Positions 2,272-53,294 of a stretch of 64,000 nucleotides of DNA are shown one piece after another. Under the pieces are notes generated by a model that was given only the letters and a program-made list of their open reading frames with translations, searched no databases and was not told the origin of the DNA. Position 1 is the stretch's first letter. Each line of letters opens with the position of its first letter. The position numbers and the translations under genes were made by a program. The DNA is from Chitinivibrionales bacterium (GTDB taxonomy: Bacteria > Fibrobacterota > Chitinivibrionia > Chitinivibrionales > WJKA01), in the NCBI GenBank assembly GCA_014728215.1, contig WJLZ01000044.1:30235-94234 (forward strand), written 5' to 3'.

Positions 2272-3893
2272 ACACTGCTCCCTGAGATTTGGATCCGGCT
2301 TTCCCGGACTCTGAATGTTTTATCGGTGATTCGGTTGTCGATTCTTTTAGTCATACCGTATAAATCAAGAATACTTCCCCCGTAAATATGGCCGGTTACC
2401 CGAATGTAGCCGTCATACCGGGACTGTATATGGGTCTTTTTTCTAATTTCACCGGCTCTTTTGTCGATGTATTTCAGTTTCAGGGTGAGATTATTATATA
2501 TATCCACCCACTTTTTTATCTCTTTTCGCTGGCGGTCTGTTGTGTGGGCACCGGTCTTTTTGAGGATTGCAGCCTTGGTCCTGACCTGTTTTTTGACCGG
2601 CTCGAGTTTTTCTTCGAGGCTTTTTTTAAGTTCGAGAATCTCTTTGAGCTTTTCCTCTGCTTCGATTCTGTTTTTATCATAGAGGCCGATGCGCGTTTCG
2701 ATCAGTTTTTCAGTGCCTATCTGGTGTACTTCGATATGTTTCGCTGCTCTGAGACTACCGCCTACGACTGATGCCTGATGGTCGAGGGCCCGTAAAATCC
2801 CGCAGCTGCAGGTACAATGAAGACAGCTTCGCTCTATCGTTAAGACACCCTCGGTCTCCAAAATGGCTTCCTGAGCAAATACCGTGTGAATACCGGCTTT
2901 TCCATAGATATAACACTCTCCTTTACCCAGAATGCCTCTCTGGACCGTTATTGTGCCGTTACGGGAGATAATCCGCGCAGCTTCAATCTGCCCCTTTACA
3001 GTAATATTTCCTTCGGCTTCAACAGTAAACCCGGGCATGACATCGCCACCGATAACAATGTCTCCCGCATGCTTGACATTGCCGACACTGTAGTCGACAT
3101 TTTTTCCGATTGCCAGTTCATCGGTAACATTAATCAGGTTTCCTTCACGCTTGAGTACGCCCGACCGTGATGCCACTAATTGGGTGCCGTCATCGGAAAC
3201 ATGCACATTGGTTCCCGCGGGAAAGGCAATATCATTTCCCGGCTGAGCCGGAATTTTTCCCCCGGTTACTGAAATACCGTCTTCCCCGGGAGTGGGGGGG
3301 GATTTTTTTGCAATTACCTGGTTTTTTCCAACCTGGACAAAGGAACGGATATTCCGGTAATCGACACTGCCGTCTTTCTTTTCCTGAGGTTTCAGATCGG
3401 TTTTCAGATCGATTTCGAATTCAATTTCACCGTCTTTACCGTCCACCGGCGCTTTGGCAAATGCGACCGGGATGTCGATATCGAATTTCCCCGATTCAAT
3501 GTATTCAGTCACCTTTTTTGTGTTAATACCGTAGCGTACGCCCTTGCGTTTCAGGCATAGAAGCAGCATTTCAGTCGTTGGTTTAAGACTGTCGGCAAGA
3601 CAAAGAGAGTTTATTTTCACACTCGCTCTCTGAGGAGTTATGGTTACATCAACATACTTGTCAAAACCTGGATCGTAATATTCGAAAGGCGGTCCGATAA
3701 GCTCGGGTTCACCCGATGCACGTTCGATAACCTGTTCTAAAAGAGCCATATCGTAATTCATGACAAGTGCAGAATTCAATGCCCGTTTGATTGTTTCGAT
3801 CGATGTCCTTGGCTTCTCTTCCGGCGTTACCGTTACAAAAACGCCATCTTCGCGTTCTTCAACTGCAAAAAAATGTGCCAGGGGATTTCCCAT
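2268..3893 (-). CDS. FapA (DUF342) family polymer-forming protein
   Basis: The 541-aa protein matches FapA/DUF342. It has an N-terminal alpha/beta region, the PTPGEDGISVTGG loop near residue 205, a glycine- and valine-rich beta-helix (about 240-390, with repeats such as GDIVIGGDVMPGFTVEAEG), then a long charged coiled coil (about 395-480) and a short C-terminal beta segment. A cysteine cluster CLHCTCSC lies within the helix, which is unusual and could bind metal. Family members form polymeric scaffolds linked to flagellar placement, cell polarity or two-component signalling. The downstream STAS gene overlaps by 4 nt, suggesting a complex. The start at 3893 gives the expected full length. Confidence 0.85.
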   Translation of the reverse strand: MGNPLAHFFAVEEREDGVFVTVTPEEKPRTSIETIKRALNSALVMNYDMALLEQVIERASGEPELIGPPFEYYDPGFDKYVDVTITPQRASVKINSLCLADSLKPTTEMLLLCLKRKGVRYGINTKKVTEYIESGKFDIDIPVAFAKAPVDGKDGEIEFEIDLKTDLKPQEKKDGSVDYRNIRSFVQVGKNQVIAKKSPPTPGEDGISVTGGKIPAQPGNDIAFPAGTNVHVSDDGTQLVASRSGVLKREGNLINVTDELAIGKNVDYSVGNVKHAGDIVIGGDVMPGFTVEAEGNITVKGQIEAARIISRNGTITVQRGILGKGECYIYGKAGIHTVFAQEAILETEGVLTIERSCLHCTCSCGILRALDHQASVVGGSLRAAKHIEVHQIGTEKLIETRIGLYDKNRIEAEEKLKEILELKKSLEEKLEPVKKQVRTKAAILKKTGAHTTDRQRKEIKKWVDIYNNLTLKLKYIDKRAGEIRKKTHIQSRYDGYIRVTGHIYGGSILDLYGMTKRIDNRITDKTFRVRESRIQISGSSV

Positions 3894-4031
3894 GAAACAT
3901 TCCCATAGGACAAAACATAGTTGGAAAATAGTGGAATTATCCGGCTTTCAGAGCCGATTCCTTTGATATATTCTATTATTGATACCCGGGGATTGCAAGT
4001 CAAAAGCGAATAGTGCCGGGAGGCTGGCTGG

Positions 4032-5102
4032 TCAGTGCGAACCGATCAATTTCTCGATTTCGCCCGCGCATTTTCGGGCACCGGAATCGTCTACAGGGAC
4101 AGGGCGTTTCCTTTGTGTTACTCGGGCAAGTACGTCATCCCAATCCAGTGCTCTGTATCGGCCGGGAGAGAGGTGGTATCCATGGCCCCATTTCTTTACT
4201 GCCCTCTCGAGGACCGGATGCTCGGCGAAATCGTCGCGGGGCAGATATAACAGAGGAACACCATTGAGCATACATTCAGCAACCGTGCTGTACCCGATCT
4301 TTGAGATAACCAGATCTGCCGATGCCGGGAAATCCTGGTAGGGGATAAGCCGTTTATCGATACGGTGGTAGTTGGATACCTTCTCCGGGAGGGGGTAGAG
4401 TCCGAAGAATTCCCAGTTTTCGAATCGTTCCAGCTTTTTCCAATCCCGGGAATCCATGCCGTATTCGCCGATATAGATAAGCCCCAGCTTTTTATCAGGA
4501 CTGACCCCGAACCGGGCGGCAAGCCCTGCTTTCCGGTTTGTACCTTTTCGCCCGACAATGGGCATAGGGGTTCTTACCGGAAAGAACTCCATGGGATTGG
4601 CCGCTGCGATTTCCAGAAGAAGATCGGCCAGGGAATACTGATAACGGATTTTCTCGATCCAGGGAGCAAAATCAGGGAAAGGGCCGGCAAAGGGGGCATA
4701 AATATTGTACCAGGTAAAATTGGTGGCTGCCACTGAAGGGATTCCTGCCCCTGAAGCTACTTCAAAGGCAAAAGGAGGAATATCACCAACAATGCCGTCG
4801 ACAGTATGTTCTTTACACCACGCTATTTCATACTCCAGTGCCTTTTCATTGGCCCGAGCGATCTCCTTGTAGGTGTCAATCGTTTTCTTCATGTCGATCG
4901 TTACAAAATCACGCTGGAAACAGCCGCAATCGAACCGGCCGGGATAATAGTTGAAAGGACGCCGCAGTTCTTCATCAAAAAATGATTTCGGCAGCATGGT
5001 GCGAATTGTCAACGCAACATTACTTGAAAAGGCATTGCAGATAGTACTCGCCCGCACACCGTGCCCGTAACCGTGAGCTGTAATGTAGTAAAGAATATGC
5101 AT
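4032..5102 (-). CDS. GT-B fold glycosyltransferase-like protein
   Basis: The 356-aa protein begins MHILYYITAHGYGHGVRA, the glycine-rich N-terminal motif of GT-B enzymes resembling MurG and the N-terminal part of L-arabinokinase-type proteins. The C-terminal half has ADLVISKIGYSTVAECMLNGVPLLYLPR, the donor-binding segment of glycosyltransferase family 28 C-terminal domains. There is no signal peptide, so it is cytosolic or membrane-associated. Acceptor and sugar donor are unknown. It follows the lipoprotein gene by 12 nt and shares its strand, so it probably ends the operon that begins with the HEAT-repeat gene. Confidence 0.72.
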   Translation of the reverse strand: MHILYYITAHGYGHGVRASTICNAFSSNVALTIRTMLPKSFFDEELRRPFNYYPGRFDCGCFQRDFVTIDMKKTIDTYKEIARANEKALEYEIAWCKEHTVDGIVGDIPPFAFEVASGAGIPSVAATNFTWYNIYAPFAGPFPDFAPWIEKIRYQYSLADLLLEIAAANPMEFFPVRTPMPIVGRKGTNRKAGLAARFGVSPDKKLGLIYIGEYGMDSRDWKKLERFENWEFFGLYPLPEKVSNYHRIDKRLIPYQDFPASADLVISKIGYSTVAECMLNGVPLLYLPRDDFAEHPVLERAVKKWGHGYHLSPGRYRALDWDDVLARVTQRKRPVPVDDSGARKCAGEIEKLIGSH

Positions 5103-5684: not shown

Positions 5685-7909
5685 GATTCGGTGTTGTTTG
5701 ATTGGAGTTTCTCCTTCCGGTTTTTGTCCCACCATGATTTCCATTTCGTGTGATCGGTTCCAAACTTCTCACCGGTTCTCAACCAGAGGGTGTTTGCAGC
5801 TTTTTCCCGTACGGCAGGATCTTCATGCTGAAGATCGGAAATTAGAGATCCGATATCGGTGGTAGTGTTGTCGAATTCCAAATTTGTCAACGACTCCAGG
5901 GTGATGGCTGCTTTTTCTCTCACATAGGAACTCTGATCCTTGAGCATGGCCCGAATCGGCGGAATTGCCCGTTTGTCTCCGATCCTTTCCAGAGCTTCAC
6001 AGGCATTATACCGTACAAAGGAAATGTTGTCTTTGAGAAGATCAATCAGTGCTTCGACCGCCCGGGGATCTCCGATTTTACCCAGAGCATAGGCTGCTTT
6101 TTCTCTGACATAGGAGTTCCGCTTTTTAAGCTGCCTGATCAGCGGTTCTACAGCATCCCGTGCTTTCATTTTACCAAGAACTTCAATGACATTTTTTTTA
6201 AGCTCGGTGTCCCGCCCTTTCAGGGAAGCGATCAGTGGTCCGGGTTCATTCAGTTTGACCAGGGCGTCCATGACTCGGTCACGTACAAAGAGACTGGTAT
6301 CGGTGAGTGATTTTATGAGGTATTTGCCGGCCTTTTGGTCTCCGATTTCTCCGAGTGCATAGGCTGCCTGAGCCCGTGTTGTCCAGTTCGGATGACGCAG
6401 TGCGTCAATGAGCGGGCCGACTGATTTTCTGCCGGTCGCAATAAGCGCCTTTCGAGCCTCATCGCTCAACGAGGTCGGCTGGTCGGGCCCGGGTGTCAAA
6501 CTGTCGGTTTCGGGTGAGGGCGTATAGAGTGCCGTGTCGGGGAAGACCGCGATCAGTGCCGGTATTGCCGGAGCGGCATCAGCTTCCAATTGAGCCAGGG
6601 AGAGTGCTGCGTGAATCCGGTTTTTATGGAGAGGTGATTTGAGTTTGTCGATATACCGTTGCGGATTCGATAGAGCCGGGCCTCTCTTTTCGGACTCCGC
6701 CACATTCCGTTTGCTGTCGGGACTGGAGATTACCGGCGCCGGCTTTCTCGGGGCGGGGGCTAAAGCGACCGGGCCCGGCGTAACCGGCCTTTGAGAAGGC
6801 GGGGACGGTTGCCGGGAAACCGGGACCGGAGACCCGGTATTCTCCTTTGGTGGAGCACCTTTCAACGCCTGTTCCGGCTCCGGGCTTTGTTTTACTTTGC
6901 CTAATTTATCCTGAGATGTCTCCGGCGGTACCGGAGCTTTTGAAAGTGCGGGAGAAATCTGCTGTTTCCGGGTGGGCCTTTTCTTTTTGTCGCTCCCTTT
7001 TTCCACCGCAACGCTCTTTTCAGACTGTTGCAAATCAACAGATGGCTGCGAAACCATGTCCGCTTGTTTCGATTGTGCCGTGACTTTGGGAGTTGGAACC
7101 GTTACCTCGTTTGATCTCCGTTCTCCAGGCTTTGCTGTTTGAGCAGCATTCGATGCTCGCTCATTGGTTTCCGGGTCTTGAGCTACAGCTACTGGTTCCT
7201 GATCTGCAGCACTGGGGAGTTGTTTCTGTTTTGATAGTTGAGAATCGGGCCGGGGAATGGCCTGTCGGTTTGCCGGTGATCCGGTCTCCGTTGTGCTGTC
7301 TTTTCTGTTCCCGGGAGCTGATTGGCGCACCACAGGCTGTTGTGAAGGCGGCATTTCATTTTTTGTTTGCTGATCATTCGGTTTTCTTTTTTGAATTTGC
7401 GAGGGAATAACAGGTGGAGTTTGCGGTGCTTTTTTTTCCTTAACAAGCTTTTTGCCGTCGATTGTATCGATCATCTTTTTAAAAATATTTACCCGTGAAC
7501 CATCAACGTTGAGAATAATCATATTGGCATTCTCCGATATGATTTTCCCATGGAATGAGGCGCCGTTTTTCAAATTTATTGTTACCCGACGGCCATGGGT
7601 GAAAGTGATTTTCCTGTACTCGGGTTTGTCCGATTGCGGTGCCCCTGATGATGGTGAGGCGGGGGGAGGGTACTGAATCGGTGAATCATCTATTTTGCTG
7701 ATGAGCGATTTTGCGATATTGATCTTTGAACCGCCGGTATTGAGAATAATGAAATTAGCCGATTCGGAAACGATTTCTCCGGTAAATGACGCGCCGTTTT
7801 TAAGCTCTATATCCGTTCCTCGCGTACTCACCGAAGTTAAAAGGCAGAGAATAACAGATAAGCAAGCGATTCTGATGCCTTTTCTGAATAAGCCGGGGTG
7901 TTTTGTCAT
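5681..7909 (-). CDS. Secreted HEAT-repeat protein with duplicated N-terminal beta module
   Basis: The 742-aa protein has a signal peptide (about residues 1-30). Two copies of a ~45-residue beta module follow: DIELKNGASFTGEIVSES near 32 and TINLKNGASFHGKIISEN near 105, both ending in a conserved IDxxK/P stretch. Next is a ~250-residue Pro/Gln/Lys-rich, probably disordered linker. The C-terminal half (about 415-725) has PBS-lyase-type HEAT repeats with the recurrent VREKAAYALGKIGD pattern. HEAT solenoids mediate protein contacts, so I infer a periplasmic scaffold. A GGGAG Shine-Dalgarno precedes the ATG. It leads an operon with the lipoprotein and glycosyltransferase genes. No enzymatic residue is visible. 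Confidence 0.82.
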   Translation of the reverse strand: MTKHPGLFRKGIRIACLSVILCLLTSVSTRGTDIELKNGASFTGEIVSESANFIILNTGGSKINIAKSLISKIDDSPIQYPPPASPSSGAPQSDKPEYRKITFTHGRRVTINLKNGASFHGKIISENANMIILNVDGSRVNIFKKMIDTIDGKKLVKEKKAPQTPPVIPSQIQKRKPNDQQTKNEMPPSQQPVVRQSAPGNRKDSTTETGSPANRQAIPRPDSQLSKQKQLPSAADQEPVAVAQDPETNERASNAAQTAKPGERRSNEVTVPTPKVTAQSKQADMVSQPSVDLQQSEKSVAVEKGSDKKKRPTRKQQISPALSKAPVPPETSQDKLGKVKQSPEPEQALKGAPPKENTGSPVPVSRQPSPPSQRPVTPGPVALAPAPRKPAPVISSPDSKRNVAESEKRGPALSNPQRYIDKLKSPLHKNRIHAALSLAQLEADAAPAIPALIAVFPDTALYTPSPETDSLTPGPDQPTSLSDEARKALIATGRKSVGPLIDALRHPNWTTRAQAAYALGEIGDQKAGKYLIKSLTDTSLFVRDRVMDALVKLNEPGPLIASLKGRDTELKKNVIEVLGKMKARDAVEPLIRQLKKRNSYVREKAAYALGKIGDPRAVEALIDLLKDNISFVRYNACEALERIGDKRAIPPIRAMLKDQSSYVREKAAITLESLTNLEFDNTTTDIGSLISDLQHEDPAVREKAANTLWLRTGEKFGTDHTKWKSWWDKNRKEKLQSNNTES

Positions 7910-11502: not shown

Positions 11503-12540
11503 ATGGAACCATTCATTCTCGCTGCACTGATCATTCTGATTATATTGACATCGATTCTTATTTTTAAAAAACAAACAAACAAAGACTTTCCCTCTCAATT
11601 CGATGCCAGTTTGAATGAAAAATTTCTTTCCTTTCAGACCGAGTTGAATAAGTCTCTGGCAAGTACCCGTGAAGAAGTTGTTCGGTCCAAAGATATGGTT
11701 TCGGACCATGCCCTGAAAACGCTTCAGACAATCAAAGATATGGGGGGGACTATTCATAAAATCGTCCAGCAGCAGGAAAATGCACAGAAACTCGGTCAGT
11801 CACTTAAAGATCTGCTTGCTGCACCGAAATTACGGGGCAATTACGGCGAGACTATCCTCGAAGAGATGCTTGACAGAATACTTCCGCAGGGGATATGGGA
11901 AAAACAGTACCTTGTTGATGGGCGGGAGCGGGTCGATGCGGCTATCCTCTATCGGGATATTGTCATTCCTATCGATGCCAAATTTCCCCGTGACGATTAT
12001 CAGCGATACCTGAGTGCTTCAACCGAGGCTGAAAAAAGCAAGTGCTGGCGGGATTATGAGAATGCCGTTCGTATTCAGATTAGAAGTATCGGGACCAAGT
12101 ATATCAAACCCGAAAAAGGGACCGCCGAGTTTGCGCTCATGTTTATACCTTCGGAGGCTATTTACTACGAAACTATCGCAGAAAAAAATCATCTGGGCGA
12201 CAGTTCGAGACTCTATGAGTATGCACAGCAGAATAACGTCCTTCCGGTAAGCCCCAATACCTTTTATGCTTTTTTACAAATAATAATTTACGGTGTCAGA
12301 AACATCGAGATAATCAAGAGTGCCAAAAAACTTCAAAACCAGCTCAAACAGATGCAGAAGTCTTTTGACGGATTTTATAAAAAATATGAAGATATCGGAA
12401 AGAATCTTACCAAAGCATCCGAATCATTCCGCATTGGGGATGATCATATCCTTCGGTATAAACAAAGACTCGACAACGCAGTGAAACTCGAAGTAAAGAA
12501 CGATGAAGAGAAAGCTCTTCCCGAAGAAGGGGACGAATAG
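11503..12540 (+). CDS. rmuC: DNA recombination protein RmuC-like
   Basis: The 345-aa protein has an N-terminal membrane helix (about residues 3-21), a coiled-coil region (about 35-90), and the RmuC domain (about 95-310) with the conserved LRGNYGETILEEML segment and the stretch VIPIDAKFPRDDYQRYL, whose acidic and lysine residues suit the PD-(D/E)XK nuclease-like fold. RmuC limits inversions and rearrangements in E. coli. At 345 aa it is shorter than E. coli RmuC (about 475) but in the range of other phyla. It is followed 7 nt later by the rsmE start, so the two are co-transcribed. Confidence 0.9.
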   Translation: MEPFILAALIILIILTSILIFKKQTNKDFPSQFDASLNEKFLSFQTELNKSLASTREEVVRSKDMVSDHALKTLQTIKDMGGTIHKIVQQQENAQKLGQSLKDLLAAPKLRGNYGETILEEMLDRILPQGIWEKQYLVDGRERVDAAILYRDIVIPIDAKFPRDDYQRYLSASTEAEKSKCWRDYENAVRIQIRSIGTKYIKPEKGTAEFALMFIPSEAIYYETIAEKNHLGDSSRLYEYAQQNNVLPVSPNTFYAFLQIIIYGVRNIEIIKSAKKLQNQLKQMQKSFDGFYKKYEDIGKNLTKASESFRIGDDHILRYKQRLDNAVKLEVKNDEEKALPEEGDE

Positions 12541-39736: not shown

Positions 39737-41821
39737 ATGGCAGTGAAATTTGGTCCCCATGATTTATTTGTTTCACCATTGGGCGATGATGCTTATAGGG
39801 GAACAAGCCCCGATATTTCGGAAGATGATGGTCCGCTTAAAACCTTAGAGCAGGCCTGCAGTATCCTCAGGAAAAGCAAAGCGCGTGGAGAATTTGCCGG
39901 TCCTGTAACTGTCTGGCTCAGGGAAGGAAGATATTTTTGCGATAAACCTCTCTATTTTACACCCCGGGATTCCGGGCCGATCACCTTTGATTCCTATCCG
40001 GGCGAAAAACCGAAAATCAGTGGCGGGATCGAGATTAAAAACTGGGAAGAAAAGACTGTTGATAATAAAACGATGTGGGTTGCCGATGTTTCCGCCATTG
40101 TCGAAAAATGTGGCCCCTTCCGCCAGTTGTTCGTTAACGACAGGCGTTGTCCCCGGTCCCGACTTCCTAAAAAGGGGTATTATACTATTAAAGATATTCC
40201 ACCAAAGGAAACACAATCCAGTCCCCATGCCATAAAAGACCGTTTTATTTGTGAGGCCGGGCAAATTAAAAAATGGAAAAATTTAAAGGATGTAGAAATC
40301 GTTGTTCTCCATTACTGGATCGACGATCGTATGCCCATCGAATCATTCGATGAGAAGCAGAATCTGGTAATCTGCTCAAAAACAGCTCGAATGTCGCTGG
40401 TTGACGCCTTTGGTCAGGGGAACAGCAGATACTATATCGAAAATGTCTTTGAAGCACTCTCCGAACCGGGGGAATGGTACCTGGACAGAAAGGATTGTCT
40501 GCTCTATTATATCCCCTGTGAGGGAGAATCAATCGATTCGGTTGAAACCATTGTTTCGGCTATTTCCCAACTGGTAATCGTTCAAGGGGAGCCCGACTCT
40601 GAGCGCTTTGTTGAATTTCTGACCTTTCGGAACCTCTGTTTCGAACATACCGACTGGGTCCGTCCATACGTAACCCGCCAGGCGGCGCCCGATGTCCCCG
40701 GGGTAGTTTCTTTTGAAGGCGCTCATAATTGCACCATTGAAAATTGCACGTTTCACCATCTTGGATGGTATGCGGTGGATATCAGGGATGGTTGCCGGGG
40801 GAACAGGATAACCGGCAATACCATGCATGATATCGGCGGCGGTGGCATCAAGGTCAACGGTTCCCATTCATGGGGGACAGTCTCCCGGCGGACCGGGGGG
40901 ATGGTTATCACCGATAATCATATTTATGACAGCGGCAAAATCTATTATGCATCCACCGGGATCGTGCTCATGCACACCTTTGGAAACAGGGTTGCCCATA
41001 ATCATATCCACGATTTGTATTATACCGGAATTTCCCTCGGCTGGGTCTGGGGTTACTGGCCATCGGTGGCCTGTGATAATCTCGTTGAAAAAAATCATAT
41101 TCACGATCTGGGCAAGGGCGTTATCAACGACATGGGGGGCATTTACACTCTGGGTATCCAGCCCGGGACGGTTCTTCGCAACAATTTGATCCATGACATC
41201 GAAAAGCACGGCTACGGCGGGTGGGCCATTTATCCTGATGAAGGCAGTTCCTATCTGGTAATCGAAAACAATATCTGTTATAATGTCAGCAGTCAACCCT
41301 TTCATCTTCACTTTGGGAGAGAGAATGTTCTGCGGAACAATATCTGGGCTTTTGGTGAGGAAGGTATCATTGCGATCAGCCGCGGGGTCCGTTTGAGGTG
41401 GGAAGACAAAGGGGCTTTCGACGACGGCCATGGCGGTAAATCGTTTACATTCGAACGCAATATCGTTGTCACCGATAATCAGCCGCTTTTTGTGGGGGGC
41501 ATGGATGACCCGACTGGCGGATTGGAAACCAAAAGCTTTCTCAGCGATTTGAATCTTTACTGGGATGTAAAGAGAACGCCGGTTTACAGTGTTAATGCCG
41601 GGCACGGCAAAGCAGGAAAAGAGGGAGCATCAAAAGTTTTCGAGTGGGATGAATGGCAAAAGCGCGGATATGATATACATTCGGAAATTGCAGATCCCCG
41701 GTTTACCAATGCCGAGCAGGGAGATTTCTCCCTTGCTCAGGATTCCCCTGCCTTTGAACTCGGGTTTATTCCCATTGACATGTCGGATGTAGGGGTTCGC
41801 CCGAAAGAAAAGAGGGGTTAA
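39737..41821 (+). CDS. Right-handed parallel beta-helix protein (no signal peptide)
   Basis: A 694-aa protein. The N-terminus (DLFVSPLGDDAYRG...) is the 'FYVSPxGDDxxxGT' entry to a pectate-lyase-like beta-helix. Beta-helix coils run from about 190 to 620, rich in Asn- and Gly-turns (ENCTFHHLGWYAVDIR, NHIYDSGKIYYAS, NHIHDLYYTGISLGW). It is a paralogue of the protein at 50974-53052 (same NHIHDL and GGIYTLGIQPGTVLRNNLIHDI elements). Unlike the paralogue it lacks a signal peptide and a C-terminal sorting tail, so it may be cytoplasmic or the start may be incomplete. Catalytic class is not deducible. crcB begins 3 nt after its stop. Confidence 0.8.
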   Translation: MAVKFGPHDLFVSPLGDDAYRGTSPDISEDDGPLKTLEQACSILRKSKARGEFAGPVTVWLREGRYFCDKPLYFTPRDSGPITFDSYPGEKPKISGGIEIKNWEEKTVDNKTMWVADVSAIVEKCGPFRQLFVNDRRCPRSRLPKKGYYTIKDIPPKETQSSPHAIKDRFICEAGQIKKWKNLKDVEIVVLHYWIDDRMPIESFDEKQNLVICSKTARMSLVDAFGQGNSRYYIENVFEALSEPGEWYLDRKDCLLYYIPCEGESIDSVETIVSAISQLVIVQGEPDSERFVEFLTFRNLCFEHTDWVRPYVTRQAAPDVPGVVSFEGAHNCTIENCTFHHLGWYAVDIRDGCRGNRITGNTMHDIGGGGIKVNGSHSWGTVSRRTGGMVITDNHIYDSGKIYYASTGIVLMHTFGNRVAHNHIHDLYYTGISLGWVWGYWPSVACDNLVEKNHIHDLGKGVINDMGGIYTLGIQPGTVLRNNLIHDIEKHGYGGWAIYPDEGSSYLVIENNICYNVSSQPFHLHFGRENVLRNNIWAFGEEGIIAISRGVRLRWEDKGAFDDGHGGKSFTFERNIVVTDNQPLFVGGMDDPTGGLETKSFLSDLNLYWDVKRTPVYSVNAGHGKAGKEGASKVFEWDEWQKRGYDIHSEIADPRFTNAEQGDFSLAQDSPAFELGFIPIDMSDVGVRPKEKRG

Positions 41822-42496: not shown

Positions 42497-43243
42497 ATGA
42501 AAATGAATTTCTCAGATTCATACGCAATTACCGGTGATTTCCTAACCACATGTAATGATTTTTATAGTACTGTTTCCACTCAAAGCAGTAATACTGGGTT
42601 GAAAAAAAAAGAGGTGGATCGATCCGCCGGGGAACTAGCCGTTTTCAATAAAGGGCATTATTATCTTCATACAACCGCATATAAACCAACCGGTTTGGCG
42701 CTTGGTTTTCCCCTGCCCGATCCCGATTTTAAGGAAAATCTCTGGAATATTTCGATGGAAATTAAAAGGCATTTGAGAATGTTTTCTCCCCAATCCACTA
42801 AGTTATTTGCCCATGTACCACCTGAAAGTTACCATGTTACCATTGTCAATAGGAAGCATTTTGATAACAACGATCTGGTAGAACCTTTAAGCAGTTCGGA
42901 GAAAGACAGGGCTGAGAATGTCATCCAAAAATTGCAGATAGGAGAAGTGGCAGTTTACTTCAATGGGTTTATCATATCAAACGAAGGCCGTGTGCTTGTG
43001 AGAGGATACGTATTTGACAACCGGCTTTTTTATTTGCGCAAAAAGCTCACTGAAATAGGAAACATCTTTAAAGACAGGATCCCTGTTGGAGCGCATATTA
43101 AGCTGGGGCATGTTTTAATTCAACTAGACAAGCATGAGTTAAAGACCTTTAATCAAAGAATATCATATTTAAGCGAACAAATAAGCGCATTGATCAAATT
43201 CAATGATTGTTATACCCAGCAGGGGCAAATATCTTTCCGATGA
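42497..43243 (+). CDS. 2H phosphoesterase-like protein
   Basis: A 248-aa protein, first of a three-gene cassette. It has two His motifs in the right order and spacing for the 2H phosphoesterase superfamily (LigT/AKAP18-like): ESYHVTIVNRKHF (His113-x-Thr115) and VGAHIKLGHVLIQLD (His200-x-Lys202). Lys replaces the usual Ser/Thr in the second motif. Enzymes of this fold cleave 2',3'-cyclic phosphates, 2'-5' oligoadenylates or cyclic nucleotides. There is no signal peptide or membrane segment. No strong Shine-Dalgarno is seen. The gene is visibly more AT-rich than its neighbours. The substrate cannot be told from sequence. Confidence 0.7.
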   Translation: MKMNFSDSYAITGDFLTTCNDFYSTVSTQSSNTGLKKKEVDRSAGELAVFNKGHYYLHTTAYKPTGLALGFPLPDPDFKENLWNISMEIKRHLRMFSPQSTKLFAHVPPESYHVTIVNRKHFDNNDLVEPLSSSEKDRAENVIQKLQIGEVAVYFNGFIISNEGRVLVRGYVFDNRLFYLRKKLTEIGNIFKDRIPVGAHIKLGHVLIQLDKHELKTFNQRISYLSEQISALIKFNDCYTQQGQISFR

Positions 43244-43313
43244 TTCCAAGGCAGGTTCTGCAGATTTTGCGCCTCTTGATGCTGAACCCTTTCCCAAATA
43301 GAAGATCATTTCT

Positions 43314-44267
43314 ATGATTGTTACTCCGGATATGCAAACATCTTTTCCTCCTATGGTTGTAGCGGCGCTAACAAACGTATGTACACATGCATGTATCCAT
43401 TGTCCTCAAAGGCATTATTCTCAAAAAAAGGATTTTAATCCGCATTACATGAGTTGTGATTGCATAGAAAACATTGTTGATGAAATGGCTCACTATCCCC
43501 ATTCTCTCCTTCGTTTTTGTGCCTGGGGGGAGCCATGCCTTCATCCGAACCTGACTGATTTTGTCGCGTATGCTCATTCCAGAAATGTAAAAACAATTCT
43601 TCTCACCAACGGATATCTTCTTAATGAACAATTGTCTCAGGCACTCTTGAACGCGGGACTTACTCTGATAGAAGTCAGCATCGATGCCGCTTCATCGGAA
43701 ACATATACTGCTGTCCGCTGCTGCAATGATCCTGCCGCGTTTACAAAAGTAGTCGATAACGTTGAATCCATGATTCAATTACGCAACGCTGTTTTATCCA
43801 GTACATCAATTGTTGTCAGCCATGTCACCTGGCCGAATGAAGCCGGTGAAATGGAATTTCGCGAATTTGAATCCTCCTGGGACGGCAAAGCCGATGAGGT
43901 TGTTAAAAGGCGATTAACTTCATTTTGCGGTACCCTCGATTCTGAATCGGTCGCGGTTCCGGAAAATCGAGTTCCCTGCTATGGATTATGGGCACGATTC
44001 AATGTAAACCCCTGGGGGAAAGTGCCGATTTGTTATAACCAGTGGGAGAAAGATAAATGGATTATCGGTGATTTGAACGAACCGCAGTCGACAATTACTT
44101 CGATCTGGACCGGCGAGCAATTTAACCAACTCCGGAAGCAACAGAAAAAAGGTATTTATACCGGTCCCTGTGAAAACTGCACTGATTATAACCCCTTTGC
44201 CTGGGAGCATCCCTTTGAAGAAGTCGTCTGGAAAGTTGAACAAAACAAAAAATGTAAATTTTCATAA
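43314..44267 (+). CDS. Radical SAM/SPASM-domain protein
   Basis: The 317-aa protein has the radical SAM CX3CX2C motif CTHACIHC (Cys23, 27, 30), GEP in FCAWGEPCLH, and TNG in TILLTNGYLL, all needed to bind the [4Fe-4S] cluster and SAM. The C-terminus has a SPASM-like Cys set (VPCYGLWARF, VPICYNQW, GPCENCTDYNPF) for auxiliary clusters. SPASM enzymes usually modify peptides or small RNAs or act as maturases. The viperin motif is absent. It lies between two 2H phosphoesterase-type genes, 70 nt after the first and 27 nt before the third, and no RiPP precursor is obvious. The role is unknown. Confidence 0.85.
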   Translation: MIVTPDMQTSFPPMVVAALTNVCTHACIHCPQRHYSQKKDFNPHYMSCDCIENIVDEMAHYPHSLLRFCAWGEPCLHPNLTDFVAYAHSRNVKTILLTNGYLLNEQLSQALLNAGLTLIEVSIDAASSETYTAVRCCNDPAAFTKVVDNVESMIQLRNAVLSSTSIVVSHVTWPNEAGEMEFREFESSWDGKADEVVKRRLTSFCGTLDSESVAVPENRVPCYGLWARFNVNPWGKVPICYNQWEKDKWIIGDLNEPQSTITSIWTGEQFNQLRKQQKKGIYTGPCENCTDYNPFAWEHPFEEVVWKVEQNKKCKFS

Positions 44268-44294
44268 ATTTGATGTTTCTGTAAAGGATCAAAA

Positions 44295-45824
44295 ATGATT
44301 AAAAAATTACTGGATAAGTTTTCTTTAAGCGGGATTGTTTCAAGCGCAACCAATCGGATTGTCGATCAAAAACTGCTGTTTATCATTGTTGTGACCGGTT
44401 TGCTGGAAATATTGCTGCTCAGTGGAGTCGATGTGCCGTTACGATTACTTCCCATTGCCTATGCTCTTCCGATTATAGCCCTTATTGCAATTATATTGAA
44501 GGCTTCCGACCTCGAAAGAAAAGCATATATCGAAGATCTGGGAATAAATGAATCGGAAACCCATGTCAAAATTGTTCCCATACTGGAAAAAAGCAAAAAA
44601 ATCAGATTGTTGGGTACAGGATTGTGTATTATTCAGAATCCCAATTTGTTGCAGAAAATAATGAAAAAGACCCGTGAAGAAAATGTGACACTTGAAATAT
44701 TACTCGCTAATCCCTTTAGTCATGATGTCAAATCCCGTCTTATTGAAGAAGAAATGGGCGAAGAAAAGCCCCATGTAGGGAGACAAGGCATAATAAACAT
44801 AATTAATATGGTGCTCATGGAGAGAGATGCACAGGGTAACAAGGAAAATGTTACGTTGCGGCTTTTCTCAAATTATCCAACTTTTGCCATAATGGTCCTT
44901 GACGATCATTATTATTTTTATCCTTATGCATATAAAAAACTTGGTAATTACAGTCATATTTTCCATTTCGTCGAAGAATCCAGAAATTGCACCCCGCTAA
45001 TAAAATTTATTGAGAGTCAATACACTCGGATATACAACGATTCTCTCGACCTTGCAGGTGTTGGCTCATTTGACGCCACAATTCATCGTCGACTCCAGAA
45101 AAAACAGGCTGCCGACAATGACAAGTGGTATGCCTATGCACTTTACTATATTCCGGATGAGAACTCCAGGATTTATACCTTTGGCAGTACTATCGTGGGA
45201 TATGATATCAGATCGAAAATCCATACAAATTCTGTTTATAAAAACTATACAGGGGCTGCTAAATATTATGGTTTTCATTTAACAATATGTGATGCCCTTT
45301 ATTTTAAAAATCAGGCCTGGCTGGATCGAGCAATCAAAGAGACCGAATTTCTTGCCGAGGAATTCATGCCCTTTGATCTTACAAACGTTCGATTACTCGA
45401 ATCATTTCCAAACCAGACAGCCGTTTCAATCGGGTGTACTGATGAATCGGGGGGGCTTGAAGCATTGCATCATGAACTGGTTTCCAAAGTCTACAGGACA
45501 GCCTCGGGGTCAAATTATACGAGGGATAAGGCACTTTTAGACCGCACGGCACCATCAGACAGGACAAACCTTATGCTGACATATTACAATGCCCCCTATA
45601 TTTTGAAACAATTCAGACCTCATTTTACACTTCTCTCCAATGTGCCGGATGAAAAACAACATGAAATGAAACTGATGCTGGAGAATGATTTCTCAAATGC
45701 AAGAGTCGAGCAGCGACTGCATGTTGATAAACTGGCAATTATGACATGCGGCAGACCTGAAATTGCCTCTGATGCTCCACAATGGAAAATCGTTAAAGAA
45801 ATTCAACTGGGTAAAAGATTGTAA
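44295..45824 (+). CDS. Membrane protein with PLD-like/DUF5919-like region and C-terminal 2H phosphoesterase (DUF1045-like) domain
   Basis: The 509-aa protein has two adjacent membrane helices (about 27-43 and 50-70), a central domain (about 88-235) and a C-terminal domain (about 275-490). The central domain reads KKIRLLGTGLCIIQNPNLLQ and then LEILLANPFSHDVKSRL, and later LRLFSNYPTFAIMVLDDHYY, a pattern resembling DUF5919/PLD-like domains without catalytic HKD motifs. The C-terminal domain has His328-x-Thr330 (YGFHLTICDAL) and His443-x-Thr445 (RPHFTLLSNV), the paired 2H motifs, and the upstream stretch resembles DUF1045. I infer a membrane-tethered nucleotide phosphodiesterase with a sensing region. 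A third gene in a coherent, AT-rich cassette. Confidence 0.72.
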   Translation: MIKKLLDKFSLSGIVSSATNRIVDQKLLFIIVVTGLLEILLLSGVDVPLRLLPIAYALPIIALIAIILKASDLERKAYIEDLGINESETHVKIVPILEKSKKIRLLGTGLCIIQNPNLLQKIMKKTREENVTLEILLANPFSHDVKSRLIEEEMGEEKPHVGRQGIINIINMVLMERDAQGNKENVTLRLFSNYPTFAIMVLDDHYYFYPYAYKKLGNYSHIFHFVEESRNCTPLIKFIESQYTRIYNDSLDLAGVGSFDATIHRRLQKKQAADNDKWYAYALYYIPDENSRIYTFGSTIVGYDIRSKIHTNSVYKNYTGAAKYYGFHLTICDALYFKNQAWLDRAIKETEFLAEEFMPFDLTNVRLLESFPNQTAVSIGCTDESGGLEALHHELVSKVYRTASGSNYTRDKALLDRTAPSDRTNLMLTYYNAPYILKQFRPHFTLLSNVPDEKQHEMKLMLENDFSNARVEQRLHVDKLAIMTCGRPEIASDAPQWKIVKEIQLGKRL

Positions 45825-50973: not shown

Positions 50974-53052
50974 TTATCGCAACGTTATGATCCGCTTTTG
51001 AAGGCGGTCCGAACGGTTTTCCATCCTGTAGATATAACATCCCGAAACCGGGGACATCAGGGGGTTGAGTTCCCGGCGGGTGATATTTTTCCACTGACCA
51101 ATTTTTCTTCCCCGGATATCGTATACCGCAATAATATGAGAATCAGCACCCTTTACGTTTCCCTTGGTGATATCAAAACCATGGCCTGCACCGGGTGAAG
51201 AGATGATTTTTCTTTTTGTATCGGTGAGTCCCCAGTACGAAGGATCGTGGACATAGGCATACTGCTCGGTGGGACCGGCACGCTCCAGGGCGGGTTGTAA
51301 AATCGAATCCGGGGGCAGTTCACCCCGGGGATACATGTGATTGTTGCGCACCGTATTGTCGGATTCCCAGCTTCTGTACCACTGAAGGTTGGTGCCTGAA
51401 ACATTATACACCACACAATCTTCGATAAGAAAATTCATACAACCTTCATCCATGGAAAACCCGTTATTGTCTTCACCCTCTGCCTGGGGGTGTCGCGGAA
51501 TATCATGGATCACATTGCCCCGCAAGACCGACCCGGGCTGAGTGCCGAGGGCGTAAATCCCGGCGCCGTCACCAAGGTACTCCATGCAGTGATGAATATG
51601 ATTGTACTCCACAAAGCAGCTCTCCATGCTGGTGGGATCGGCATTCCATTTGAATCCGATCGATACCCCGGTATAGGGAAAATGGGCGATGGTATTATTG
51701 GAGATGACCGTGTTTTTTGTAAAGGCGGTCCAGACTGCGCAGGAACCGTAATAGATGACATTGCCGTGGTGAATATTGCAATTGGTGACTTCGTTGCCCA
51801 CCGGCGCCATTGATGGATCGGGCCAGTCTCTTGATTTGCTGTAGAGCGCGCCGTTGTCGTAGAGGTGACCGCGGTAGCCGATCATCACGGCCTGAGCACC
51901 CACATCGGTAATCTCACAGCCGGTGACTTTATTATAGTGTGACGCCACACCAATGCCGACGGCGTTCTGGGCCATGTGGGCAATGCGACAGCCCTTGATT
52001 TCGCACTTTTCGGCATAGTTCAAATCGATCGCCACGGGGATAATAAAGGTGACCCCGCCCCCTTCCCAGACATAGTGTGCTGCCTGAAGACATCGGAATC
52101 CTTCCTCTTCCAGAATCCATTGGGTGTGTTCAAGCCGCATGTTTTTGAAATGAAGGTTTTTTACAGGATTACCGGATTCACCGTGGGCCTTGATAAGGGT
52201 GTTGAGCTTTGGTGCAATAAACTTCCGGGTATTTGGATCTTCTCCCGGAGGAGCAAGATAGGTAAGTCGCCCGGTAGAAGCATCGCAATGCCACTCGCCC
52301 GGCTGATCGATAAAAGGGATTGCATGCTCCAGAAACAAACGGGTCTGGGCCGTGGTTTGATAGGCAATATGCCAGCCGGGGCTGCCCAGAGAATTAACCG
52401 TCGAAATATGATTGTTGCTCGATGATTCGATATAGACACGGCTTGTGTTCCATATATGCAAAGCGCATATTTCAGCTTTATACTGCCCCAGGTCTTCGGT
52501 AGAGGGGACCAGCGGAAGATCGATTTCGTCAAGATCGTAATTGACATCATCCCTGCTGTTGAGTTTCATCAAGCTGTCCCCGTTGGGAAACCGGCTCCGG
52601 GGCATCCGATGATTATCCTTGAACAATTGGCCGAACCACCATGACCCCTGGGCAACCTCGGGAATATCCATATACCACAGATCGCCGCTCAGGTTCTGCC
52701 ATCCGGTCAAAATTTCTCCGCCCGAGAGAAGCACATTCTCGTTTTCATAGGCAGACCAGGTTACCACCCGGGTGTCATCGCCGCCGTCCTGAGGACCGAA
52801 GGTCAGCGTGGAATCAAGATAATATTCACCCTCCCGCAAGTAAACAGTGATGTTGCCCGTCATGGAGGCAGCTCTGGCCTCACGGACAGCCCGCTGAGCG
52901 CGTTCCGGCGTCAAAAAAGGATGATCGATCGTTCCCGGCGAAGAATCATCACCGGAAGGAGAAACATAAAAGGATGTATCACCCGCATACAGTGCAGAAA
53001 ACGAAATAAAAAGAATGAGCACGCTGAAAATGAATCTAATCTTTAATTGCAT
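50974..53052 (-). CDS. Secreted right-handed beta-helix protein with T9SS-like tail
   Basis: I start at 53052 (MQLKIRFIFSVLILFISFSA), preceded by a GGAAGG Shine-Dalgarno; the ATG at 53094 adds 14 residues. It has a signal peptide, then SFYVSPSGDDSSPGTIDHP and a long beta-helix (about 190-600) with Asn/Gly-rich coils such as NHIHHCMEYLGDGAGIYALG and NVIHDIPRHPQ. The last ~65 residues (IIAVYDIRGRKIGQWK and GCYIYRMENRSDRLQKRIIT) look like a type IX sorting tail. It is a paralogue of 39737-41821. Pectate-lyase-type polysaccharide binding or cleavage is plausible; the exact reaction is unknown. Confidence 0.85.
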   Translation of the reverse strand: MQLKIRFIFSVLILFISFSALYAGDTSFYVSPSGDDSSPGTIDHPFLTPERAQRAVREARAASMTGNITVYLREGEYYLDSTLTFGPQDGGDDTRVVTWSAYENENVLLSGGEILTGWQNLSGDLWYMDIPEVAQGSWWFGQLFKDNHRMPRSRFPNGDSLMKLNSRDDVNYDLDEIDLPLVPSTEDLGQYKAEICALHIWNTSRVYIESSSNNHISTVNSLGSPGWHIAYQTTAQTRLFLEHAIPFIDQPGEWHCDASTGRLTYLAPPGEDPNTRKFIAPKLNTLIKAHGESGNPVKNLHFKNMRLEHTQWILEEEGFRCLQAAHYVWEGGGVTFIIPVAIDLNYAEKCEIKGCRIAHMAQNAVGIGVASHYNKVTGCEITDVGAQAVMIGYRGHLYDNGALYSKSRDWPDPSMAPVGNEVTNCNIHHGNVIYYGSCAVWTAFTKNTVISNNTIAHFPYTGVSIGFKWNADPTSMESCFVEYNHIHHCMEYLGDGAGIYALGTQPGSVLRGNVIHDIPRHPQAEGEDNNGFSMDEGCMNFLIEDCVVYNVSGTNLQWYRSWESDNTVRNNHMYPRGELPPDSILQPALERAGPTEQYAYVHDPSYWGLTDTKRKIISSPGAGHGFDITKGNVKGADSHIIAVYDIRGRKIGQWKNITRRELNPLMSPVSGCYIYRMENRSDRLQKRIITLR

Positions 53053-53294
53053 ATCACCTTCCATCAGGTTATAATTGATTATTCTGCCTATCATTAAATA
53101 TAGTTAACCGTTGTTCAGTATAGAACAAAAGTAGTTGGAGCACTGATTTAAATTGTATTTCATAATTATAAGAGCTTATATCCCGACAAGCAACCGAGAA
53201 AAGTTTAAATAATTTAAGCTGAAATTGGAACTTGGCCTTAAACCAATAGAATAAACAAAATTACAACTATTTAAACAGCTAATGAGGAACAGGC

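Follow-up and report, generated by a model that had tools for sequence, protein, structure and literature searches.

Three neighbouring plus-strand genes, here named A, B and C, raise the question of what a 2H-fold protein, a radical SAM/SPASM enzyme and a protein combining a two-helix head, a PLD-fold body and a second 2H domain do together. The genes lie in the window, a stretch of 64,000 nucleotides (nt) of contig WJLZ01000044.1 from a Chitinivibrionales bacterium (GCA_014728215.1; contig positions 30,235-94,234, forward strand). The open reading frames (ORFs) of A (42497-43243, 248 amino acids), B (43314-44267, 317 amino acids) and C (44295-45824, 509 amino acids) are separated by 70 nt (A-B) and 27 nt (B-C), and the layout given in the initial annotation was recovered from these frames. 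The cassette is real and conserved, with conservation of its motifs across relatives well beyond chance motif matches, and its function is a prediction. We give about an even chance to the reading that it is an undescribed anti-phage module of the abortive infection type, in which effectors are swapped on an immune protein.

This prediction is carried by the architecture of the C family. A protein search, in which the 8000 candidates sharing most words were scored, gave 39 proteins including that of the window. All of them aligned over one PLD-2H body, while the N-terminal head differed. The heads consisted of one or two predicted membrane helices with no recognised domain in 16 of the 39 proteins, TIR_2 in 12 (one also with SEFIR), CAP12-TIR in six, a calcineurin-like phosphoesterase in one and a nucleoside deoxyribosyltransferase in one. 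P0020, P0049 and P0051 were left without a class, P0051 being a headless fragment with a short body, and P0046, which has a predicted helix inside its TIR head, was not counted as a membrane head. Within the family, PADLOC models matched as CBASS TIR effectors (6 proteins), PycTIR (6), bSEFIR (4), SAVED-TIR (8), TIR-TM (2), ThsB (2, one model), a CBASS endonuclease effector (1) and several candidate PDC models; these counts overlap, because several of the models recognise TIR domains. When three C relatives were scanned singly with PADLOC 2.0, the matches were confined to the heads. A constant body with exchanged effector heads was thus found among the 39 proteins, and one body that carries alternative toxic heads is, judged from sequence, the pattern of signalled immune effectors. 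Since the body is constant and the heads are swapped among immune effector domains, the cassette may well be an undescribed cell-suicide defence. Defence had already been suggested, and the head swapping found here points the same way.

The features of C in the window are the following.

44295..45824, plus strand: gene C, two-helix head, PLD-fold body and 2H domain
44373..44501, plus strand: two predicted membrane helices (residues 27-45 and 51-69), the swappable head
44511..45065, plus strand: PLD-fold domain, residues 73-257
45129..45812, plus strand: 2H domain, residues 279-506, DUF1045-like
45276..45284, plus strand: His328-Leu-Thr330
45621..45629, plus strand: His443-Phe-Thr445

The 2H pair His328/His443 read in the initial annotation is in place, each histidine standing in an HxT motif and both being invariant in the family (39/39). 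The predicted structures upheld the 2H folds of both A and C, and C gave a Pfam match to DUF1045 (2H); PF06299 matched 36 of the 39 relatives and DUF5919 six. The two membrane helices and the DUF5919/PLD-like middle were also recovered, the DUF5919 likeness being weak and found in a search of the middle alone: residues 86-272 gave an E-value of 5.4e-4 and 20.2 bits, under the cut-off of 23.5, and the whole protein gave no DUF5919 match in Pfam. Likewise, the family body had no Pfam PLD match, and DUF5919 was weak in one of three body pieces searched. The catalytic PLD motif HKD was absent from all 38 C bodies examined, although the PLD fold itself is present. In fold and in this absence the body resembles the inactive PLD-fold sensors TrmB/TrmBL2 and DUF5919, but the C family has no DNA-binding domain match and is coupled to effector heads. 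C likewise shares its fold and both HxT motifs with the 2H superfamily (LigT, YjcG, Usb1, CPDase, Acb1), but its 2H domain is fused to an effector.

The closest sequence family of the C 2H domain is DUF1045/TIGR03223. C differs from it in its fusion to a PLD fold and an effector head, and in a score far under the cut-off for TIGR03223, a phosphonate operon protein (E-value 1.3e-19, 70.7 bits, cut-off 248.95). This match, although under the cut-off, counts for a metabolic module in which C would use its 2H domain to hydrolyse a cyclic phosphate of ribose, the reaction proposed for the DUF1045 protein of C-P lyase operons (PMC8235418), and the radical enzyme would act upstream in the pathway. 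However, a pathway of this kind offers no obvious role for TIR, SEFIR and CAP12-TIR heads, and phosphonate genes were not noticed next to the cassettes, where no systematic search was made. We give this metabolic explanation very little credence.

In the abortive infection reading that we favour, the constancy of the body and the swapping of the heads suggest the body as sensor and the head as killer. Once the PLD-2H body of C has sensed a trigger, the head would kill the cell or bring it to a halt; in the window, the two helices of the head would do so by damaging the inner membrane. The trigger, bound by the 2H domain, would be a small nucleotide-like molecule, or an RNA end, that bears a cyclic or 2'-linked phosphate. 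The 2H fold of Acb1 can hold cyclic immune nucleotides on an HxT/HxT tetrad (PMC9117128). From this and the DUF1045 proposal, a phosphate-bearing small molecule would be the most likely trigger, and by analogy the C body likely senses a phosphate-bearing, nucleotide-like signal. The radical SAM enzyme might make or modify the trigger, or mature A, and A, with one altered motif, might be a binding partner or brake rather than an ordinary phosphoesterase.

The intact HxT motifs of C would also suit RNA-damage sensing or repair, in which the 2H proteins recognise or heal RNA ends with a 2',3'-cyclic phosphate, for example on tRNA cleaved in the course of a phage infection, and a lethal head is coupled to broken RNA through C. 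Such ends are acted on by 2H enzymes (PMC9503650), and the near folds include LigT, YjcG and Usb1. Yet Pfam detected no RNA ligase, kinase or nuclease domain in the cassette proteins tested beyond 2H-family and phosphoesterase matches, and the radical SAM enzyme would be left unexplained. We consider this explanation quite unlikely.

The companion 2H-fold protein has no Pfam match and carries the following features.

42497..43243, plus strand: gene A, 2H-fold protein (246 amino acids if started at the second ATG)
42551..42565, plus strand: N-terminal Cys19-x3-Tyr23 motif, in 14 of 17 aligned sequences, the other 3 starting downstream of it
42833..42841, plus strand: first 2H motif, His113-x-Thr115, invariant (17/17)
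43094..43111, plus strand: altered second motif, His200-Ile-Lys202-Leu-Gly-His205, with Lys202 and His205 in 17/17 and His200 in 15/17

A was initially annotated with a His-x-Thr/Ser pair at His113 and His200. The first half of this pair stands. The second does not, His200 being part of His-Ile-Lys: no second conserved HxT/S was found among the 17 aligned sequences, HxK being present in 15 and its Lys in all, and His205 sits in an invariant Lys-Leu/Ile-Gly-His. The second motif is counted as altered on account of the invariant Lys at the Thr position, and in this HxK and KLGH A differs from the 2H superfamily, whose fold its predicted structure has. The 2H domains of A and C could not be aligned by profile, so the second motif of A cannot be placed by sequence; the HxK probably falls on the strand of the second 2H motif. 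The altered motif makes it doubtful that A degrades a small molecule, as had been proposed for the 2H proteins.

The third component is the radical SAM/SPASM enzyme.

43314..44267, plus strand: gene B, radical SAM/SPASM enzyme, from Pfam and alignment
43380..43403, plus strand: radical SAM cluster motif C23-x3-C27-x2-C30, from sequence and alignment
43977..44180, plus strand: four invariant SPASM-type auxiliary cysteines, C222, C240, C286 and C289

B scored 56.6 bits with PF04055 (cut-off 29.5) and 36.5 bits with PF13186, SPASM (cut-off 21.5), and the four auxiliary cysteines were invariant in 23 aligned sequences (of 27 matches), which bears out the CX3CX2C motif and SPASM-like cysteines noticed earlier. 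B resembles prokaryotic viperin (pVip) in its radical SAM core, and the PADLOC pVip model matched it at 5.5e-15. It carries a SPASM domain, however, and scored far short of the NF038283 cut-off (49.4 against 180 bits), and the assignment as a viperin was rejected.

A whole C body was found in eight loci: the window, a Deltaproteobacteria metagenome-assembled genome (MAG) (L002), a Thermodesulfovibrionia MAG (L003), two Chloroflexi MAGs (L004 and L005), a KSB1 MAG (L006), L044, which was found via A, and L066. L007, L008, L009 and L069, where the match covers no more than the 2H part or a piece of this part, were excluded. A adjoins C in seven of the eight loci; counted from the first start codon, the two overlap by 26-34 nt in L002, L003, L004, L005 and L066, and they are 4 nt apart in L044. 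A radical SAM gene stands beside A in four loci, 3' of it in L002, L003 and L004 and between A and C in the window, so that the order A-B-C is a circular permutation of the C-A-radical SAM order of the other three. The radical SAM proteins of L002-L004 (470-510 amino acids) are of one type, with 39% and 29% identity to that of L003, and this longer type was present whole in three of eight genomes searched, each time as a single copy that lies beside the cassette. From the radical SAM counts of the genomes and about one gene per kb, the chance of at least four of eight loci having such a gene within two genes was about 1.5e-7, a rough figure, since radical SAM genes are undercounted by the profile and the loci include two that are related. 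The head is a phosphoesterase in L002, TIR in L003 and L005, and TIR by likeness to L005 in L066. The window has a head of membrane helices, and so, on reading by eye, do L004 and L006. The co-occurrence check that had been proposed thus indicates a cassette that is not a chance neighbourhood.

Several of these loci hold further observations. In L044 (L044:1483-2061, L076), on a contig of 3328 bases, gene A has an in-frame TGA beside an open C, perhaps as a decaying copy. A gene like Nuc_deoxyri_tr2 follows the C-A pair at the place of the radical SAM gene in two related Chloroflexi genomes, L005 (4462-4971) and L066 (3464-3997), the match, tested for L005, having an E-value of 0.0015 and lying under the cut-off. 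In L006, where C has neither A nor a radical SAM gene beside it, a protein of 358 amino acids with no Pfam or NCBIfam match is encoded 3' of C (3454-4530).

The same loci bear on whether B belongs to the system at all. A and C could form the real system with B as an unrelated neighbour in the window: B differs from the L002-L004 enzymes in subfamily and in position, and A and C occur with no radical SAM gene in L005, L066 and L044. On the other hand, a radical SAM gene beside A in half of the loci is far from the chance expectation, and B lies between A and C, in short gaps and with the same low GC content at third codon positions (GC3). The GC contents of A, B and C were 0.388, 0.434 and 0.393, and the GC3 values were 0.394, 0.403 and 0.376, as compared with 0.484-0.679 in nine other window genes measured, so that the cassette is AT-richer than its neighbours, as had been noticed. 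That B is unrelated appears very unlikely to us.

SPASM enzymes mostly modify peptides. This counts for a peptide-modifying conflict module, in which the substrate of the radical SAM/SPASM enzyme is a peptide or the N-terminus of A with its Cys-x3-Tyr, and the modified product, not a nucleotide, controls the effector or is the effector. The presence of Cys-x3-Tyr in 14 of 17 A proteins suits this explanation, and the N-terminal domain of the longer radical SAM type gave weak PqqD matches in two of three cases (E-values 0.03 and 0.17, under the cut-off, an unrelated model being better for one). Radical SAM/SPASM genes also accompany peptide effectors in conflict systems, as described in a 2020 eLife paper (PMC7159879). 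The VMAP ternary and FtsH ternary systems of that paper resemble the cassette in having a radical SAM gene together with variable effectors (TIR, phosphoesterase), but no cassette protein is VMAP, MoxR, vWA or a protease by Pfam, and no peptide was recognised. In 12 gap and flank regions from five sources, no small ORF was common to the cassettes; one pair matched inside the flanking repeat of L003 itself, and another at an E-value of 0.048 over 16 residues. Moreover, B has no N-terminal domain of the longer type, and Cys-x3-Tyr persists in A of L005 and of L066, two loci that have no adjacent radical SAM gene. We judge the peptide explanation unlikely.

The heads of C relate the abortive infection reading to CBASS, Pycsar and Thoeris, whose effectors (TIR, 2TM and CAP12-TIR heads) are likewise built as a constant sensor body with an exchangeable toxic head; some of the C-family heads match the same PADLOC models. 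The known effector bodies of these systems are SAVED, STING, cNMP-binding or SLOG. The body of C, by contrast, is a PLD fold with a 2H domain, and the window cassette lacks a CD-NTase, a nucleotide cyclase and a separate TIR protein that makes a signal. Among the three cassette proteins and ten neighbours, no CD-NTase of CBASS and no pyrimidine cyclase of Pycsar was matched, and the window cassette gave no TIR or SLOG match as in the ThsB and ThsA of Thoeris; for want of a signal-maker, membership in the three systems was rejected. The three-gene set was not described in the open-licence literature searched. Neither a PLD-2H body without the catalytic motif nor radical SAM chemistry is known to serve as receptor or signal source in signalling defences. 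The cassette ties effector swapping on such a body to radical SAM chemistry. Should the trigger be set by the radical SAM gene, a new type of immune messenger could be put to a direct test; if it is not, the C-A pair would still be an uncatalogued family. A new class of immune signalling, with a messenger made by the radical SAM enzyme in place of a nucleotide cyclase or TIR enzyme, a PLD-2H receptor driving interchangeable killing heads and the companion 2H-fold protein as brake, is quite improbable in our estimate.

Several observations weigh against the prediction of a defence module. A is absent beside C in L006, and its frame is broken in L044. L005, L066, L044 and L006 have no adjacent radical SAM gene, and L005 and L066 are close relatives, so that the eight loci amount to about seven independent ones. 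What B has in common with the L002-L004 enzymes is limited to the radical SAM/SPASM core (hhalign 99.4%, 235 columns), and the radical SAM slot may therefore not have one function. The head of C in the window is a structure model of low confidence, and this C had no PADLOC match at 1e-5. TIR and phosphoesterase domains occur outside defence too, and none of the known kinds of signal-making enzyme is present. None of ten window neighbours tested was a recognised defence gene, one HEAT-repeat protein matching HEAT models only. Of the initial proposal of a nucleotide-signalling or defence module, the defence reading and the non-chance set were supported, and proximity to defence genes was not found among these ten neighbours. 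No C relative was found in viral contigs (short-pattern scan), plasmids (window C as query) or phages, and no A relative in viral contigs (short-pattern scan) or plasmids (A of L003 as query), phages not having been searched for A.

B had matches in viral DNA at 21-32% identity (20 loci) and in plasmids at 25-29% among the 8 records listed out of 33, and the radical SAM protein of L003 had plasmid matches at 23-30% among the 8 records listed out of 272. With no relatives of C or A in the sets searched for each, and with these matches being generic radical SAM proteins, an origin from a virus, phage or plasmid was rejected.

Among the genomes surveyed, the module is rare and patchy. The C body was found in one of 167 genomes of the phylum of the window, where 22 of 23 matching genomes had been dropped because they matched only within the first 194 of the 563 profile columns (the head, taken as TIR-like). 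Counting the centre genomes, it occurred in 2/249, 1/130 and 1/117 genomes of three classes and in 1/82 genomes of the KSB1 phylum, which gave one further 2H-only match. A occurred in 1/400, 1/395 and 2/395 genomes of three phyla, again with centre genomes counted, in surveys that scored only some first-look candidates (e.g. 6 of 16) and may have missed cases. The listing of A does not contain the A proteins of L002-L005, and the family sizes are thus lower bounds.

In two loci, bracketing repeats suggest movement of the cassette as a unit. A perfect inverted repeat of 43 nt brackets the cassette of L003 (7067-7109 and 11480-11522), its 26-nt core having no third match in the draft genome at up to two mismatches; short frames near it resemble transposase starts. 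In L004, a direct repeat of 117 nt at 87% (7382-7498 and 12008-12124) places a copy of the 3'-terminal stretch of a long upstream gene, presumably for DNA polymerase III alpha, beyond the cassette, as if the cassette had entered at this site. No convincing flanking repeats were found around the window cassette and none in L002, and L005 and L067 had weak pairs with no clear bracket.

In other loci, six flanking genes were tested. Four of them matched nothing, and the proteins of two matched parts of models. These are an nSTAND1-WD40 protein of 1335 amino acids upstream of the cassette in L004 (589-4596) and a protein of L005 that we take to be a methyltransferase. In the window, scans for promoter-like sites (17 against 11.3 expected, standard deviation 3.6) and terminator-like sites (3 against 3.2 expected) were uninformative. 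Two beta-helix proteins with GH141 insertion domains are encoded at 39737-41821 and 50974-53094, one on each side of the cassette region, and a transfer-messenger RNA gene with the tag AEDYSFAMAA lies on the minus strand at 870-1229.

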